Shown here: piece by piece, positions 1,974 through 44,740 of the stretch
Layout of the letters: the number at the start of each line of letters is the position of its first letter
Position numbering within the stretch: position 1 is the first letter of the stretch
Assembly (NCBI GenBank): GCA_027487695.1
Contig: JAIYDB010000077.1
Coordinates: 1-48,752, forward strand
Source of the DNA: Cytophagaceae bacterium
GTDB lineage: Bacteria; Bacteroidota; Bacteroidia; Cytophagales; Flexibacteraceae
Reading direction: 5' to 3'
DNA length: 48,752 bases
The notes under the pieces: model-generated
Database searches by the model: none
Told to the model about the DNA's origin: nothing
The model's input: the letters and a program-made list of their open reading frames with translations, nothing else
Position numbers and translations under genes: made by a program

Positions 1974-3536
1974 TTAATTTTTTTCTAGGTCAATTACTGC
2001 ACCTGATTTAGATAGGAAACGGAAATCGGTTATTCCGAGCGAACTATCTATTTGAAGGGTAATCCATTGCTTGTATTTCCACCACCATTCCATTTGCCTG
2101 CTAATTAAGCCTTTAGTGAAATAGGCGTGCAAATAAGGGTGTAATTGAATATTTAAACCTTTTTGGTTTTGCTTTACTAACACAAATTCTATTGATTGCT
2201 CAATTTGATCTGTAACTAGAATAGAAGCCTGAATAGCTCCAGAACCGTGGCAAGTAGGACAAACTTCGCTGGTTACAACATTAGTTTCTGGTCTTACTCT
2301 TTCACGGGTAATTTGCATTAGACCAAATTTAGTGAGTGGCAATACACTGTGTTTTGCACGTTCATCTTTCATTTCGTCTTTCATCTTATCATAGATCAAT
2401 CGCTTGTTATCAGACTTGCGTTGATCAATGAAATCGACTATAACAATACCGCCCATATCGCGAAGGCGCAATTGCCTTGCAACTTCTCTGGCAGCTTCAG
2501 AATTTACTTGAAGGTTATATCCTTCTTGGTCTTCTGCATTGCGTTTGCTGCTACTTCCGCTATTTACATCAATAGAATGTAGTGCTTCCGTATGCTCAAT
2601 TACAATATAACCACCGCCTGGCAACGATACTGTTTTTCCGAAAAGACTTTTTATTTGCTTTTCAACAGCATATTGTTCAAACAGTTTATTCTTGCCATTA
2701 TAAAGACGTACGATACCTTCCTTTTCAGGAGCAATAGTGGTTACATATTGCTTTATTTCATCGTAAGCTTCCTTCTGATCAACCAAAATGGTTTCAAAAT
2801 CGGCATTAAGCATATCGCGCAGTAAACTGCCTCTTCTGCTTAGTTCACCAATTACGATATCGCGCGGGCGGGCAAGCTTTAGCTTTTCCATGCCAGCATC
2901 CCACTTGGCAATCATATTAAGTAGGTCTTGTTCTATTTCTTCCGTTTCCTGGCCTTCGGCAGCAGTACGGATAATTACACCAAAATTGGCTGGCTTTAAG
3001 GCTTTTACAATTCTGGTGAGGCGCTGGCGCTCTTCTTTATTTACGACGCGTTTACTAATATTAATGCTTTCAGAAAAAGGCACTAAAATAAGGAACCTAC
3101 CTGCTAAGGAAATCTCGCAGCTTAGGCGGGGTCCTTTGGTACTAATTGCTTCTTTGGTAACCTGAACAAGGGCATAAGAATTTTTATTGAAAACGTCGGT
3201 CATTTTACCGAGTTTATCAATTGGTTTCTCTAGTTGAAAACCATCAAGTCGGCCATTGTCTTGTTTGCCGGTTTGAAGATTTTTAACAAACTTATTCATT
3301 GAAGGGATATTAGGTCCCAGATCTAGGTAATGTAAAAACCCATCTCTTTCGTGCCCAATATCTACAAAGGCAGCGTTCATACTGGTATCGACTTTGCGAA
3401 CAATACCTAGATAGATATCGCCGACTTTAAATCGAACAGCATTTTCTTCCTGATGGTATTCCACCAGGCGTTTGTCGTCTAGAAGAGCAATACGATCGCC
3501 AGTTGGTGTGCAACTTAGTAGTAGTTCGTAGCTCAA
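1974..3536 (-). CDS. rng: Ribonuclease G/E family endoribonuclease
   Basis: 520 residues, near the length of RNase G (E. coli about 490). The N-terminus (ELLLSCTPTGDRIALLDD) leads into an S1-like RNA-binding domain (about 35-130) with an insertion at about 75-112. The catalytic domain holds the metal-binding aspartates D323 (SIDVNSG) and D368 (VIVDFIDQRK), and the CPTC zinc-link motif with C426 and C429 follows, so all key residues are present. The C-terminal scaffold of RNase E is absent. The enzyme cleaves single-stranded RNA during rRNA maturation and mRNA decay. The start is a TTG at 3536: the conserved N-terminus begins there and no ATG precedes it. Cytoplasmic. Confidence 0.93.
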   Translation of the reverse strand: MSYELLLSCTPTGDRIALLDDKRLVEYHQEENAVRFKVGDIYLGIVRKVDTSMNAAFVDIGHERDGFLHYLDLGPNIPSMNKFVKNLQTGKQDNGRLDGFQLEKPIDKLGKMTDVFNKNSYALVQVTKEAISTKGPRLSCEISLAGRFLILVPFSESINISKRVVNKEERQRLTRIVKALKPANFGVIIRTAAEGQETEEIEQDLLNMIAKWDAGMEKLKLARPRDIVIGELSRRGSLLRDMLNADFETILVDQKEAYDEIKQYVTTIAPEKEGIVRLYNGKNKLFEQYAVEKQIKSLFGKTVSLPGGGYIVIEHTEALHSIDVNSGSSSKRNAEDQEGYNLQVNSEAAREVARQLRLRDMGGIVIVDFIDQRKSDNKRLIYDKMKDEMKDERAKHSVLPLTKFGLMQITRERVRPETNVVTSEVCPTCHGSGAIQASILVTDQIEQSIEFVLVKQNQKGLNIQLHPYLHAYFTKGLISRQMEWWWKYKQWITLQIDSSLGITDFRFLSKSGAVIDLEKN

Positions 3537-3586
3537 CAGTTTAAATGTTTTGAGTGAATTAGAGTAATTGAAATAAAATAAAGATA

Positions 3587-3612
3587 ACCCGAAAGAAAAT
3601 TTTCTTTCGGGT
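3587..3612 (-). terminator. 26-base perfect palindrome, probable terminator after the COX24-like gene
   Basis: ACCCGAAAGAAAA is followed directly by its exact reverse complement. Read on the minus strand it is downstream of the 29-residue gene and followed by a T-rich run (TTATCTTTATTTTATTTC), as expected for intrinsic termination before rng. Confidence 0.6.
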
Positions 3613-3622
3613 ATCAGTATCT

Positions 3623-3653
3623 TAATTACTGACTTCGTAAAGTCAGATAATTA
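3623..3653 (-). terminator. Second hairpin directly abutting the COX24-like stop codon
   Basis: CTGACTT (3629-3635) and AAGTCAG (3640-3646) pair across a 4-base loop CGTA. The flanking TAATTA copies extend the stem with one bulged base. It begins one base after the stop codon of the 29-residue gene, in tandem with the palindrome at 3587-3612. No T run follows, so it may protect the mRNA 3' end rather than terminate. Confidence 0.45.
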
Positions 3654-3743
3654 CTACTTCTTCTTATGACGGTTTTTTCTTAAGCGCTTCTTACGCTTGT
3701 GAGTGGCAATTTTATGGCGCTTTCTTTTCTTTCCGCAAGGCAT
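3654..3743 (-). CDS. 29-residue AURKAIP1/COX24-domain (mS38-like) basic protein
   Basis: The frame from ATG at 3743 encodes a 29-residue protein that begins MPCGKKRKRHKIATHKRKKR and ends in three lysines. More than half the residues are Lys, Arg or His. This matches the very short AURKAIP1/COX24-domain proteins annotated across Bacteroidota, related to mitochondrial small-subunit protein mS38 and to actinobacterial bS22. By analogy it should bind rRNA on the small ribosomal subunit; that is inference from family and composition. It lies alone between the TPR gene and rng, followed by two hairpins, which suggests a short abundant transcript. Most gene finders miss it because of its size. Confidence 0.85.
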   Translation of the reverse strand: MPCGKKRKRHKIATHKRKKRLRKNRHKKK

Positions 3744-3803
3744 GATGCTTATTGTACGGTTTAGGGTGATTTGAAATTGATAAGTATTAACAAACCATAT
3801 CTG

Positions 3804-4661
3804 TTAGTTACCTTGTAAATCGGCTATCCGATCAGCAATGGTAGCTTTGGCAGTAGGGTCAGTATTTAATTCTGATGCCTTTTTATAGGCTGTTATTGCT
3901 TCAGTAGGTTTCTTTAAAGCTGCCAAGCATTCTGCCTGATAGAAATAATATCTACTATCTGAAGGGTTAATAGCAATTAGCTGATCAAAACGGGCTAAAG
4001 CTTTATCGTACTGTTGGCTTCGTATACTTAAAGTACCTAAGCTGTAAAGCGCTAGCTCGTTTTTTGGCTCAACTGCTAACACTTCTCTCAAAAGACCAAT
4101 ACCTTTCATAGGTGTTGGGCTTTCTACATAAGTAAGTGCCAGCTTTGTTTTCGCCGAAAGCGATTTGCTTAAATCAAAAGCCTTAATTAAAAGCTCTTGA
4201 CTTTTAGAAAGTAAACCTTGGCGCTTGGCTTCGTCAAAAGCCAATGAATACGCTTCATAATAAGTTTCCCCCGCCAGTTCAAACGCCGAACCAGTTTGTA
4301 GTAAACCAGCCCTTTGTTCTAAATAAGCAGCAGCAGAATCGTATTTGGTATTTGCCTTGAACAAGTCTGCAAGTGCAAGCAATGCTTTGCCCTTTTCAGT
4401 ATTGTTACCTTTAGAAGCAGAAGTTTTTAATTCAGTGATTTGCTTTATAACAGTTGGGCTTAGCTCAACTTTATGCAGCGTATCTGAATTAGCATCCTTA
4501 CTTTCTGAAGGGGTGGCAGCAACTGAGGTTGGTTCAGCCGCAGGTTTACCAGAATTTTCAGCTTCTTTTTTAACAACACCTTTCGGCAAAACAAATAGAA
4601 CTCCAACAGCCACTACTGCAGCTAAGATAAGAACTATTTGTTTTGTGTTAAGTGCTTTCAA
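3804..4661 (-). CDS. Membrane-anchored tetratricopeptide repeat protein
   Basis: 285 residues. One membrane segment (about 9-25) is followed by a Ser/Ala/Glu-rich linker (to about 65) and then helical repeats. The clearest TPR units are ALYSLGTLSIRSQQYDKALARF and RYYFYQAECLAALKKPTEAITAY near residues 205-270. The topology puts the repeats in the periplasm, anchored by the N-terminus, where they would serve as a protein-binding scaffold; no partner can be named. The start is TTG at 4661, since no in-frame ATG exists upstream before the HU stop codon. It begins 14 bases after the HU gene, so the two probably share the HU promoter. Confidence 0.7.
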   Translation of the reverse strand: MKALNTKQIVLILAAVVAVGVLFVLPKGVVKKEAENSGKPAAEPTSVAATPSESKDANSDTLHKVELSPTVIKQITELKTSASKGNNTEKGKALLALADLFKANTKYDSAAAYLEQRAGLLQTGSAFELAGETYYEAYSLAFDEAKRQGLLSKSQELLIKAFDLSKSLSAKTKLALTYVESPTPMKGIGLLREVLAVEPKNELALYSLGTLSIRSQQYDKALARFDQLIAINPSDSRYYFYQAECLAALKKPTEAITAYKKASELNTDPTAKATIADRIADLQGN

Positions 4662-40738: not shown

Positions 40739-42028
40739 TTAGTAAGGAATAGTTTCGCCGTGGGGATCGGTTTTTGGGTAATTCAATTGTTGCTCAAGCC
40801 ATTGTTCTACCTGTGGGGTAATAATATGCTCAATGGTTTCGGCATTATCGTGAATATGATCTGGCGGTAAATTCAAATAAGTAGCCAAATATAACTCCCA
40901 TAACCTGTGCAGTTTGGCTACTCGCTTGGCTTGGATAAAACCCTTATCAGTCAATTGCCAAGTGGTAGTGCCTGTTTTTCTTACCAAATAACTCCTGCGT
41001 AAAAGCCTTAATGCATAGCTTAATTCTTCAGGTTTCATAGGTCTGATTACCTGAATTTCAGCCTCTGTTTTGGCATTTTTATGAAGTTCTTCTACTTCAC
41101 CTGCATGAAAAAATGCCTTTAAAACGTTCTCCGTCAGAATTTTACGTCTGTGCTTTTGCTGGTTTAAGTATAAAAATAGGACTCCCTTTTTTGGTGCGAA
41201 GAAGAATGAAAGTATAGCTAGGCCGCTTAATACCATTACTATCCAAGGACCTGTTGGTAAACCTGGACCTACATAACTTATAAATGCCCCTGCAAAACCA
41301 CTTACAGCTCCAAGCAAGGCGGCTATCCAAATCATTTTTACTAGGCTATCGGTCCAAAATCTTGCTCCTGCTGCTGGGGTAATGAGCATTGCCGCCATTA
41401 GTACAACACCAACTGCCTGTATACCTGTTACTATGGCTAATACTGTAAGACTAGAAAGCAAAATCTCGAGGAACTTCACAGGTAAACCTAAACTCACTGC
41501 ATAGCCCTTATCGAACGAGAGCAAGGTAAACTCCTTAAAAAAGAGGAAGGTTGCCAATAGCAAAACAATTGCCAGCGAAGCAAACACAATCAAATCTGGT
41601 CCTACCAGCGATGCCGCCTGCCCAAATAAAAACTTATCTAAACCACTTTGAGAGGCCTCTCCACTCTGTTGGATGGCAGTAAGCAATACAATACCAATTC
41701 CAAAAAACACAGAAAGCACAATGGCAATGGTAGTATCTTCCTTAAGCTTGGTTTTTCGTTTTAAATAATCGGAAGCTAATAAGGAAAGCCAACCCGTTAT
41801 GAATGCCCCAATCAATAGATATATAGGGTTTTTAGTCCCCGTAAGCATAAACGATAAACAAATACCAGGCAACACGGCGTGCGCCACTGCATCGCCAGAA
41901 AGACTTCTATTTCTTAAAAAGCTAAAACAGCCTACCACCGCTGTACTTACAGCCAACAGCATAGATCCCAATACCACAAAACGGGTATTGATATCTGCAA
42001 AACTGAAAAAGGCTATTACTTGGTCCAT
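40739..42028 (-). CDS. Metal ABC permease fused to a DtxR/MntR-like repressor domain
   Basis: 429 residues. Residues 1-285 are a zinc/manganese/iron ABC permease of the ZnuB/MntB/TroC family with 8-9 helices (AVAHAVLPGICLSF; AVGVVLMAAMLITPAAGA). Residues about 291-429 are soluble and look like a whole metalloregulator: a winged helix (about 296-362, ending TTTWQLTDKGFIQA), then KLHRLWELYL (His374) and NAETIEHII (Glu397, Glu400, His401). These match the positions of MntR metal ligands His77, Glu99, Glu102 and His103. This is the domain order of chlamydial YtgCR. It is the last gene of a binding-protein / ATPase / permease operon; dprA follows after 4 bases. Confidence 0.9.
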   Translation of the reverse strand: MDQVIAFFSFADINTRFVVLGSMLLAVSTAVVGCFSFLRNRSLSGDAVAHAVLPGICLSFMLTGTKNPIYLLIGAFITGWLSLLASDYLKRKTKLKEDTTIAIVLSVFFGIGIVLLTAIQQSGEASQSGLDKFLFGQAASLVGPDLIVFASLAIVLLLATFLFFKEFTLLSFDKGYAVSLGLPVKFLEILLSSLTVLAIVTGIQAVGVVLMAAMLITPAAGARFWTDSLVKMIWIAALLGAVSGFAGAFISYVGPGLPTGPWIVMVLSGLAILSFFFAPKKGVLFLYLNQQKHRRKILTENVLKAFFHAGEVEELHKNAKTEAEIQVIRPMKPEELSYALRLLRRSYLVRKTGTTTWQLTDKGFIQAKRVAKLHRLWELYLATYLNLPPDHIHDNAETIEHIITPQVEQWLEQQLNYPKTDPHGETIPY

Positions 42029-42031
42029 TGT

Positions 42032-42820
42032 TTAGCGTTCACGAATTGGGAATTGTTCGTTTTTAAGAAGGTCGCCTATTTTGCTTAGGATGGTTAATCT
42101 ACCACCGTAAGTTTCTTGTAAAAGTTCTTTGGTGAACACCTTTTCTGAAGGACCACTAGCTACCAATTTCATATTGAGCATAATAAGCCAATCGAAATAC
42201 TCAGTTACCGTTTGCAAATCGTGGTGAACTACTAATACCGTTTTTCCTTCCGCACGCAATTCTTTTAGGAGTTCAATAATGGCTGTTTCGGTAGCCACAT
42301 CAACCCCTGCAAATGGCTCGTCCATAAAATAAACATCGGCTTGCTGTGCTAAAGCACGGGCAAGAAATACCCTTTGTTGCTGTCCACCTGAAAGTTGAGA
42401 AATTTGACGGGTAGCATAGTTAGCCATTCCCAATTTCTCCAAACTACTCATGGCAATATCACGATCTTCGGCATTTGGTTTCTTGAACAAACCTAATTTT
42501 CCGTACCTACCCATTAGCACCACATCAAAAACCGAAGCTGGGAAATCCCAATCAACCGACTCTCGCTGAGGTACATAACTAATGCGTTGTCTTACTTCCT
42601 CAAGTGGCTTATCAAATACCTTCACAAAGCCAGAAGCCATTGGTAATAAGCCCATTATGGCCTTAATCAGCGTACTTTTACCTGCCCCATTTGGACCAAT
42701 TATACCAGCAAGCACCCCTTCAGGAATGGTGATATCTACACTCCATAACACAGGTTTGCTGTTATAACTCACTGTAAGATCGTGAACTTCTAAAACTGGT
42801 TTTGGGGTATGTATAATCAT
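42032..42820 (-). CDS. Metal ABC transporter ATP-binding protein
   Basis: 262 residues. Walker A GIIGPNGAGKSTLIKAI, Q-loop region YVPQRESVDWDFP (the ESVDWDFP form is typical of Mn/Zn/Fe importers), signature LSGGQQQR, Walker B VYFMDEPFAGVD and switch His in LVVHHDLQ. It powers the permease encoded 3 bases downstream. The operon order binding protein, ATPase, permease is complete. Metal specificity cannot be read from this subunit. Confidence 0.93.
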   Translation of the reverse strand: MIIHTPKPVLEVHDLTVSYNSKPVLWSVDITIPEGVLAGIIGPNGAGKSTLIKAIMGLLPMASGFVKVFDKPLEEVRQRISYVPQRESVDWDFPASVFDVVLMGRYGKLGLFKKPNAEDRDIAMSSLEKLGMANYATRQISQLSGGQQQRVFLARALAQQADVYFMDEPFAGVDVATETAIIELLKELRAEGKTVLVVHHDLQTVTEYFDWLIMLNMKLVASGPSEKVFTKELLQETYGGRLTILSKIGDLLKNEQFPIRER

Positions 42821-42826
42821 TAGAAA

Positions 42827-43774
42827 CTACTTTAAGGCCGAAACTATCACTTGGGTATTATATTTTACCATACCAATATAGGTACCTTCTGGTTTATCGG
42901 CTGCGCCAAGTGCATCTGAATATAATGTGCCACCTATTTTTACTGGCCAGCCCTTGCTTTTGCAACCTACCAATACCGCATTGATTGCTCTGCCAGAAAC
43001 ACTGCTTTCAACAAATATGGCTTTGATTTTTTTTGATACTATGTAATTAACAAGACTATTCACATCAGACAAACCATAATCAGTTAGGGTACTGATTCCT
43101 TGCAATCCTCTCACCTCCATATGATAAGCCTTGCCAAAATAGCCAAAAGCATCGTGAGCAGTAATTAGAATTCGACGTTTCTTTTCAATAGTTCCTATAG
43201 ATTGTAATACTTCCTGATGCAGAGCCATTAACTGTTGTTCGTAAACCAATCTGTTTTGTTTGAATTGTTCTGCAAATTCAGGGGCATTTTTTGAAAGCGT
43301 TTCTTCTACAACTTTGGCAGTTTTAAGCCATAAGACAACATCAAACCAAATATGAGGATCGTAAGAGCCGCCAAAATCTGCAGTGGCGTGCAGTAATTCT
43401 TTAGGCAAACTTTCTCCTAGTGGTACCGTTGTGCGCTTGTTTTCTATCTTATGGAGAGTTTCTGTCATCTTACCTTCTAAGTGAAGCCCATTATAAAAGA
43501 TGATTTGCGCTCTGGCAATTTTCAGTAAATCGTTTTGAGATACTTTATACAAATGCGGGTCAACTCCCGGACCCATTAAGGTTTCGCAAGTTACATTTTT
43601 ACCGCCGATAGCCTTAACCATATCGGCAACAATACCTGTTGTAGCCAATACTGTAATAGGTTGCCCCGGCGCTCTAACACGAGTTGCTGGTCTGCAAACT
43701 GAAAACAGCAAAGCAATACCTATTACAAATAGGCTTAAGCAGTACTTATTTAAACTATTTATTTTGGTACTCAT
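42827..43774 (-). CDS. Metal ABC transporter substrate-binding protein (ZnuA/TroA type)
   Basis: 315 residues. The N-terminal hydrophobic segment ends in LLFSVC (Cys27), an imperfect lipobox, so it is probably a lipoprotein. Cluster A-I fold: TVLATTGIVADMVKAIGG, metal ligand His in GPGVDPHLYKVSQND, second His in YDPHIWFDV, and later ILITAHDAFGYFGKAY and AIFVESSVSG, which supply the third and fourth ligands. There is no His-rich loop, which leans away from the typical zinc-only ZnuA. It captures a divalent metal in the periplasm. First gene of the importer operon. Confidence 0.9.
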   Translation of the reverse strand: MSTKINSLNKYCLSLFVIGIALLFSVCRPATRVRAPGQPITVLATTGIVADMVKAIGGKNVTCETLMGPGVDPHLYKVSQNDLLKIARAQIIFYNGLHLEGKMTETLHKIENKRTTVPLGESLPKELLHATADFGGSYDPHIWFDVVLWLKTAKVVEETLSKNAPEFAEQFKQNRLVYEQQLMALHQEVLQSIGTIEKKRRILITAHDAFGYFGKAYHMEVRGLQGISTLTDYGLSDVNSLVNYIVSKKIKAIFVESSVSGRAINAVLVGCKSKGWPVKIGGTLYSDALGAADKPEGTYIGMVKYNTQVIVSALK

Positions 43775-43841
43775 TTCAGTGCAAGTTACTACGAAACATA
43801 ATGTCTGAATTAAAATAAAAACTCCTACAATGTTTTAAGTA

Positions 43842-43872
43842 TTGCAATAAACACTGCCTTTGCTTAGTTTTG
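43842..43872 (+). promoter_or_regulatory. Consensus promoter of the TonB-like gene, overlapping a palindrome
   Basis: TTG (43842-43844), 20-base spacer, TAGTTTTG (43865-43872). Predicted start near 43879, leader of about 43 bases. The -33 element lies within the palindrome TATTGCAATA (43840-43849), which could be an operator shared with the divergent metal-importer operon. Confidence 0.7.
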
Positions 43873-43921
43873 ATGTTGAGGCGAAACTAAAAATTGTATT
43901 TTTACCTCATAAAACGATCAA

Positions 43922-44740
43922 ATGTCGCCAGCAGAAAATCTAAACCGATATAAAAGTGCAGCCATAACAGTAGGCATACACCTACTATTACTTTTGGCTT
44001 GTGCCTATTTATTTGGTGTAAAACCGCCGAACCCTCCCCTGCCCGATTATGGTGTAGAGGTAAACTTTGGTTTAGAAACAGAAGGCTTTGGCGATGTACA
44101 AGGTGTTGGTCCAGCCTCTGAAACAGTGACTGATGTTGCTAATGCAGAAGCTGTAAACAGTACTGAAGCCCCACAAGATGCTAGTCCTGAGGCAGTAAGC
44201 TCCACTTCAGATGCGGATAACGTAAACACAACAACCAATCCTGAAAGTCCGGTTGCCATTAAAGAAACCAATACCGCTAACAAACCAAAAGAAACCGGTA
44301 CCGGTACCGCTGAAAAAAATGTAAAGCCTGCTGTAGAATACAATGGTAATCCAGCAAATGGCGGCAACAATAACGGTAACAAAGCAGGCACAGTTGGCGA
44401 TATGGGCAACCCTAAAGGTGATATGAGTTCCTTAAACTACGAGGGCAATCCTGGAAAAGGTGGTAAAGGCGCCTCGTTACAAATTTCTGGTTGGAAATGG
44501 GATGAGGCTCCTAAAAAGGCTGACCCTTTTGATGAAACGGGTAAAATTGTCTTTGAAATAAAAGTAGATAGGGATGGCAATATTGCCAATATTAGAGTGG
44601 TAGAAAAAACGGTAAGTCCCAATGTGGTAGAGTTCTACAAGAACCAAGTTGAAGAACTCACCTTCACGAAGACCCGTGACAATGCCGATGCTGCTGAGTT
44701 TTCAACTGGCAGAATTACATTCGTTATACAAGGTAAATAA
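43922..44740 (+). CDS. TonB/TolA-like energy transducer
   Basis: 272 residues. One N-terminal membrane helix (about 13-33; AITVGIHLLLLLACAYLFG) is followed by an acidic and Asn/Gly/Thr/Pro-rich periplasmic spacer of about 150 residues. A C-terminal domain (about 205-272) contains KIVFEIKVDRDGNIANIRVVEKT and a final GRITFVIQGK. Bacteroidota proteins of this form usually follow exbB/exbD and act as TonB-like partners, passing proton-motive energy to outer-membrane receptors. No exbB or exbD is adjacent here. It has its own consensus promoter. Divergent from the metal importer. Confidence 0.75.
   Translation: MSPAENLNRYKSAAITVGIHLLLLLACAYLFGVKPPNPPLPDYGVEVNFGLETEGFGDVQGVGPASETVTDVANAEAVNSTEAPQDASPEAVSSTSDADNVNTTTNPESPVAIKETNTANKPKETGTGTAEKNVKPAVEYNGNPANGGNNNGNKAGTVGDMGNPKGDMSSLNYEGNPGKGGKGASLQISGWKWDEAPKKADPFDETGKIVFEIKVDRDGNIANIRVVEKTVSPNVVEFYKNQVEELTFTKTRDNADAAEFSTGRITFVIQGK

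Follow-up and report, generated by a model that had tools for sequence, protein, structure and literature searches.

A permease-fused DtxR-type domain with kept metal positions and a lost DNA-contact signature: a putative metal sensor of an ABC importer

Introduction

The window analyzed here, the whole stretch of 48,752 nucleotides of contig JAIYDB010000077.1 from a Cytophagaceae bacterium, carries a gene in which a metal-importer permease continues into a DtxR/MntR-type domain. The locus raises the question of whether the attached domain works as a repressor or serves the transporter that carries it. The fusion itself is already known; passages of a review citing Thompson et al. 2012 place permease-DtxR fusions in 11 phyla (PMC5599777). 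The literature that we found reads them via the chlamydial case, YtgCR (CT069) of Chlamydia trachomatis, as transcription factors. In two papers, YtgR is reported as a cleaved fragment of 28-30 kDa, compared with the ~16 kDa expected in the sequence-only reading of the window, and as a protein with iron-dependent DNA binding at the ytg promoter (PMC5599777, PMC7755916).

The fusion gene and its predicted structure

The fusion gene (40739..42028, minus strand) starts with ATG and encodes 429 aa in one frame without an internal stop. Residues 18-277 (41198..41977, minus strand) form an ABC-3 permease domain, identified by Pfam (E 7.8e-68) and by a Foldseek match of the permease part of the model to the PsaBC structure (7kyp). 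They are followed by a winged-helix part, residues 294-362 (40943..41149, minus strand), with a kept fold and a diverged sequence, and by a metal-binding/dimerization domain, residues 363-428 (40745..40942, minus strand). The equivalent of the recognition helix, residues 333-345 (40994..41032, minus strand), has lost the DNA-contact signature. In Pfam, Fe_dep_repr_C (PF02742) matched residues 360-428 (E 5.1e-22), and the DtxR helix-turn-helix (PF01325) was absent among the matches of the window fusion up to E 1. The in-frame junction of a TroC/ZnuB-type permease with a DtxR/MntR fold, which had been read from the sequence, was borne out.

Residues 286-429 were compared with PDB sequences and matched SloR (1.2e-15) and ScaR (2.2e-13). 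AlphaFold provided a full-length model with a pLDDT of 90.9 and a 147-residue model of the C-terminal domain alone with a pLDDT of 89.5. Foldseek matched the C-terminal part to DR2539 (TM 0.82 by target length), and VIA-align gave a Z of 17.8 against DtxR (132 residues, rmsd 2.1) and 17.4 against DR2539. The DtxR match starts at residue 12 of the 147-residue model, about fusion residue 294. Because of these results, the C-terminal domain was taken as a complete fold; structure prediction, proposed earlier as a check, returned a DtxR-like fold in the predicted model.

In the predicted model, the last membrane helix comprises residues 259-277, and after a five-residue gap a continuous helix, residues 283-313 (41090..41182, minus strand), begins and runs on into DtxR helix 1, as judged by AlphaFold and alignment. 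AlphaFold gives this helix unbroken, with a block pLDDT of 83-93, and Asn301, the N-terminal metal-site position, sits in it. As the helix starts five residues past the last membrane helix, the model has no loose linker. A cleavable linker is not evident in the predicted model, where residues 283-313 form one helix.

These results bear on a first alternative, a YtgR-like metal-dependent repressor, cleaved or membrane-tethered, with a DNA specificity unlike that of stand-alone DtxRs that drifts by lineage with its own operator. We regard this as rather unlikely. The window fusion resembles YtgCR, known here by published description, in its N-terminal ABC-type metal permease, its C-terminal DtxR-type domain, and its metal-importer operon, so the domain order proposed earlier agrees with the chlamydial one. 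This order, shared with a protein from which the DNA-binding YtgR fragment is reported to be cleaved off, and the full DtxR fold of the predicted model favor a repressor, whereas the model without a loose linker does not.

The importer operon and the second permease

Open reading frames and Pfam placed two further genes beside the fusion, a substrate-binding protein of the ZnuA family (PF01297, 315 aa; 42827..43774, minus strand) and an importer ABC ATPase (262 aa; 42032..42820, minus strand). The order on this strand is ZnuA-type binding protein, ATPase, and fusion. The PF00950 permease in one operon with an ATPase and a ZnuA-type binding protein identifies the system as an ABC-3 (TroC/ZnuB) importer. 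It is similar to PsaBC-type importers (TroBCD, ZnuBC) in the permease fold, which is that of PsaBC, and in the operon with an ATPase and a ZnuA-type binding protein; unlike them, it has an extra metalloregulator domain. The divergent gene at 43922-44740 shares its intergenic region with the importer operon; its match to TonB C-terminal is weak, at 17.7 bits, and does not reach the cut-off.

An unfused, second-type metal permease was found in the same genome, on contig C127 at 3309-4172 (L155), with neither an importer ATPase nor a binding protein in the 12 kb read around it. In 12 of the 17 operons headed by DtxR, described below, a second permease lies no more than about 450 bases past the fusion. 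The C127 permease is the likely unlinked partner of the window importer, as the operons of its relatives suggest. If it is the partner, each importer would carry one sensor domain, and a DtxR-type dimer would then either require two importers or fail to form.

A side observation concerns one genus of the same family (G001-G005), where the binding protein and ATPase read as one protein of 586-595 aa in 5/5 genomes (L130 1882-3642, L131 5453-7240, L132 4420-6198, L174 7042-8811, and L175 1173-2933). In L130 and L131, the two that were translated, a hydrophobic, membrane-span-like stretch lies between the two parts. A periplasmic binding protein tethered via a membrane span to a cytosolic ATPase would be an unusual importer layout.

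Distribution of the fusion

The same fusion was found in ten of the eleven genomes of the family. Among the matches listed, the whole fusion was present in 23 of the 296 genomes of the phylum sample, that of the window included. Given this presence, the fusion is not an assembly artefact. Bins of Cytophagales, Cyclobacteriaceae, and Flavobacteriales are among the relatives at 55-59% identity. Longer fusions of about 495 aa (L008-L012, L148-L150) match the stand-alone profile to its end and appear to retain the FeoA-like domain found at the C-terminus of DtxR; in L008, PF04023 scored 20.6 bits, below the cut-off.

In another 27 of the 296 genomes, again among the matches listed, the match stops after the winged helix; one further match was incomplete. 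Eleven of these 27 (L056-L066) were aligned, and they have the winged helix without the metal domain and belong to the same permease clade. For the other sixteen, the end of the match suggests that the metal domain is missing. Additionally, two Metabacillus fusions of similar length (L032, L033) have lost most metal ligands. The wider family is therefore mixed, and metal sensing is not universal in it. A (H/Y)-P-H motif occurs in 11/11 of the aligned permeases without a metal domain, and a C-terminal extension is possible in the neighboring second permeases too.

Such proteins would fit a second alternative, in which the winged helix serves the permease clade as a cytosolic scaffold or an ATPase-contact module and metal binding only stabilizes it. 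The 27 matches that stop after the winged helix, the adjoining second permeases, which can be equally long, and the Metabacillus fusions without most ligands are in its favor. However, the metal site is kept in 36/36 fused proteins with the metal domain, which seems to exceed what a scaffold would require, and PsaBC, the closest solved permease, has about 270-290 residues and lacks the domain. We consider a purely structural role improbable.

The metal site is kept

The comparison comprised 36 fused proteins, from 32 genomes and four named contigs, and 28 stand-alone DtxRs from the same genomes; a 29th, that of G008, was cut by a contig end and dropped. The fused proteins of G074, G168, G047, and G281, like those of the four named contigs, were included in the 36-protein counts and left outside the alignment used for pair identities, charges, and the tree.

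Positions 301, 374, 378, 393, 397, 400, 401, 421, and 423 were kept in all 36 fused proteins, with N/D/H allowed at 301, E/D at 397, and D/C at 421. The positions of both DtxR/MntR metal sites are thus retained in every fused protein, and PF02742 was above the cut-off in the fusions of 32/32 genomes. In the window fusion, the metal domain contributes His374, Glu378, His393, Glu397, Glu400, His401, Asp421, and His423. The earlier assignment of His374, Glu397, Glu400, and His401 held, and the conserved set is larger, as it also has Glu378, His393, and His423. Asn301 was considered as a lost ligand and rejected because most stand-alone DtxRs from these genomes (17/28) carry Asn at this position as well.

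His391 of the window fusion (40856-40858) lies in a D-H-x-H motif and is a possible extra ligand; its position is His in 29/36 fused proteins and in 0/28 stand-alone DtxRs. This fused-specific histidine and the place of the domain at the C-terminal end of the permease, probably on the cytosolic side, would suit a third alternative, a metal chaperone or buffer whose site takes the ion leaving the permease and hands it on. The fused proteins keep the positions of both sensor sites plus the dimer domain, which argues against a buffer, and we find this role very improbable.

The DNA-reading face is lost

In parts of a study of IdeR, Thr40 and Ser42 are described as phosphate contacts (PMC8464063). 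Ser or Thr at both matching positions, 335 and 337, was found in 26/28 stand-alone DtxRs and in 0/36 fused proteins, and the motif [AP][ST][VA][STN].M gave the same two counts. The position matching IdeR 41 is V/I/A, and that matching IdeR 44 is M, in all 28 stand-alone proteins, compared with 6/36 and 2/36 fused proteins, respectively. A helix-turn-helix profile built from the stand-alone DtxRs scored at most 23.4 bits on fused proteins and at least 81.4 bits on the stand-alones, its own training set. PF01325 was over the cut-off in the fusions of none of the 32 genomes. The sequence-only reading had described a complete repressor domain; the fold and the metal site stand, but the helix-turn-helix below the Pfam cut-off and the missing S/T contact pair do not fit that description. 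The fused domain thus resembles the DtxR/MntR family (DR2539, SloR, IdeR, DtxR) in its fold and metal positions, and differs in these two features and in being joined to a permease.

Divergence was also compared in 276 pairs among the 24 genomes that encode both proteins. The recognition helix had an identity of 0.21 in fused and 0.59 in stand-alone proteins, whereas metal-domain identity was 0.54 and 0.61, respectively. In 256/276 stand-alone pairs, too, conservation was lower in the helix-turn-helix than in the metal domain, by a smaller margin. Among close pairs, the fused winged helix had a lower identity than either the permease or the metal domain of the same protein in 10/10, and a lower identity than the winged helix of the stand-alone protein in 8/8 comparable pairs. 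For the fused winged helix, dN was lower than dS in six of the ten close pairs, and dS was not estimable in the other four. For this reason, identity and dN carry the divergence argument, and the six estimable pairs indicate a winged helix that is relaxed, not free. Judged by sequence, the fused domain has diverged unevenly, with its metal positions kept and its DNA-contact signature lost.

When the DtxR domains were placed in an unrooted tree, one branch (98/99) separated the fused from the stand-alone domains. A single origin of the fused domains is not claimed, as long branches were flagged and the tree has no outside root.

The absence of the signature in all 36 fused proteins and the rapid change of the fused winged helix even among close relatives count against a YtgR-like repressor. 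On the other side is charge. The recognition helix has a mean charge of +2.0 in fused and +0.6 in stand-alone proteins, and the whole winged helix +2.6 and +0.4, respectively (28 and 28 sequences). A positively charged fused helix would suit DNA, or a membrane face. According to parts of the same study, IdeR reads DNA largely by backbone shape, and its Q43A variant binds like the wild type (PMC8464063); lost sequence identity is therefore no proof of lost DNA binding.

A separate DtxR and the upstream box

A separate DtxR with both PF01325 and PF02742 over the cut-off was found in 29 of the 32 fusion genomes, that of the window included. None was found in the other three (G009, G214, G230), a point for a YtgR-like repressor; in these three, the DNA-contact signature is not restored in the fusion, and there is no exact box of the type described next. 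Fur was considered as a replacement for DtxR, and no claim is made for it. It was found in 6/6 genomes asked; in G214 and G230, a Fur gene lies 4-5 kb from the fusion, outside its operon.

DtxR is the first operon gene in 17 of the 36 fusion loci, namely 15 of the 32 genomes plus L028 and L029, in the order DtxR, binding protein, ATPase, and fusion. L030, one of the four named contigs, ends before the place of an operon-head DtxR. An exact TTTAG-N6-CTAAA box occurs within 300 bases upstream in 16/17 DtxR-headed operons and in 2/15 others (Fisher p 5e-6). This test used 32 of 34 upstreams, with L030 (47 bases upstream) and the stand-alone DtxR of the window's genome left out. The count for other loci becomes 2/18 with G001, G004, and L031, which have no DtxR at the operon head and whose best boxes have one, two, and three mismatches, respectively. 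Shuffling gave an expectation of 0.025 exact boxes for the 34 upstreams. The box is probably the target of the separate DtxR. That it tracks this protein does not suit a repressor acting through the fusion, while L148 and L150, in which an exact box immediately precedes the fusion gene itself, do. The sequence-only reading had named regulation by a stand-alone DtxR as a result that would speak against it; genome context points that way in part, with a DtxR in 29/32 genomes, at the operon head in 17/36 loci and mostly behind the box.

The window operon lacks a DtxR gene, and the stand-alone DtxR of this genome is on another contig, C129. Upstream of the window operon, a candidate DtxR box with one mismatch to TTTAG-N6-CTAAA lies at 43876..43891 (shuffle p about 0.035, weak). 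It overlaps a 27-bp inverted repeat, TTAGTTT-N13-AAACTAA (43864-43890). Zero such repeats are expected by chance, with a pattern chosen after sight of the sequence, and the repeat was kept as a candidate only because of this overlap. Upstream of the stand-alone DtxR of this genome there is no good box (best two mismatches, p 0.38). As a regulon marker for this genome, TTTAG-N6-CTAAA was rejected, since its 15 sites compared with 11 for the reversed control give no clear genome-wide signal.

The palindrome TATTGCAATA (43840..43849), put forward earlier as the target, found no support as an operator. It occurs once, with 0.19 copies expected by chance in the window, and is not conserved; in 32 upstreams of relatives (one 47 bases long), there were no exact copies and one with a single mismatch.

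A transporter-borne metal sensor

The reading that we lean towards is that the C-terminal domain senses metal and acts on the importer allosterically, by trans-inhibition, with transcription left to the separate DtxR. It best accounts for a domain whose metal site is kept, whose DNA face is lost, and whose join to the last membrane helix is rigid in the predicted model. The fusion, the predicted fold, the kept metal positions, the lost DNA-contact signature, the separate DtxR, and the box are observed; metal binding, allostery, and inhibition by the fused domain are what we infer. The positive fused helix, the backbone-shape readout of IdeR, the boxes before the fusion in L148 and L150, and a window operon without DtxR and with a one-mismatch box count against a sensor, as does YtgR, the characterized case, which binds DNA according to the papers cited (PMC5599777, PMC7755916).

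A metal-importer permease would have captured a DtxR/MntR-type metalloregulator, which would now sense metal in the cytosol on behalf of the transporter. Once Mn, Fe, or Zn from the cytosol fills the kept site, the domain would change shape, and helix 283-313, being unbroken, would carry this change to the last membrane span and to the region where the ATPase docks. Import would then slow by trans-inhibition, as in MetNI and ModABC with other domains. Control of the importer genes would fall to the separate canonical DtxR, at the operon head with the box in about half of the loci.

Fusions of regulatory domains to transporters, among them metal transporters, form a known theme, and in MetNI and ModABC transport is stopped by a cytosolic domain on sensing the imported substrate (PMC10710835). 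The likeness is one of working only, as their sensor is on the ATPase and has another fold, and inhibition in the window importer is presumed. Compared with YtgCR, the window fusion and its relatives have lost the DNA-contact signature and usually have a separate DtxR. Three things appear to be new: the constraint divided between metal site and DNA face, a canonical DtxR encoded in the same genome together with its box, and the sensor reading that follows from them. The titles and abstracts searched held no proposal of such a sensor, which is weak evidence of novelty, as subscription papers lay mostly outside the search.

In its widest form, to which we give an even chance, the claim is that an importer clade recruited a metalloregulator, erased its DNA face, and kept its metal sites, while a sister DtxR sets transcription, in about half of the loci from within the operon. 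This would be two-tier control with one sensor fold. If it is true, many permease-DtxR fusions would be transporter sensors instead of transcription factors, and manganese/iron ABC importers would gain direct, fast feedback control.
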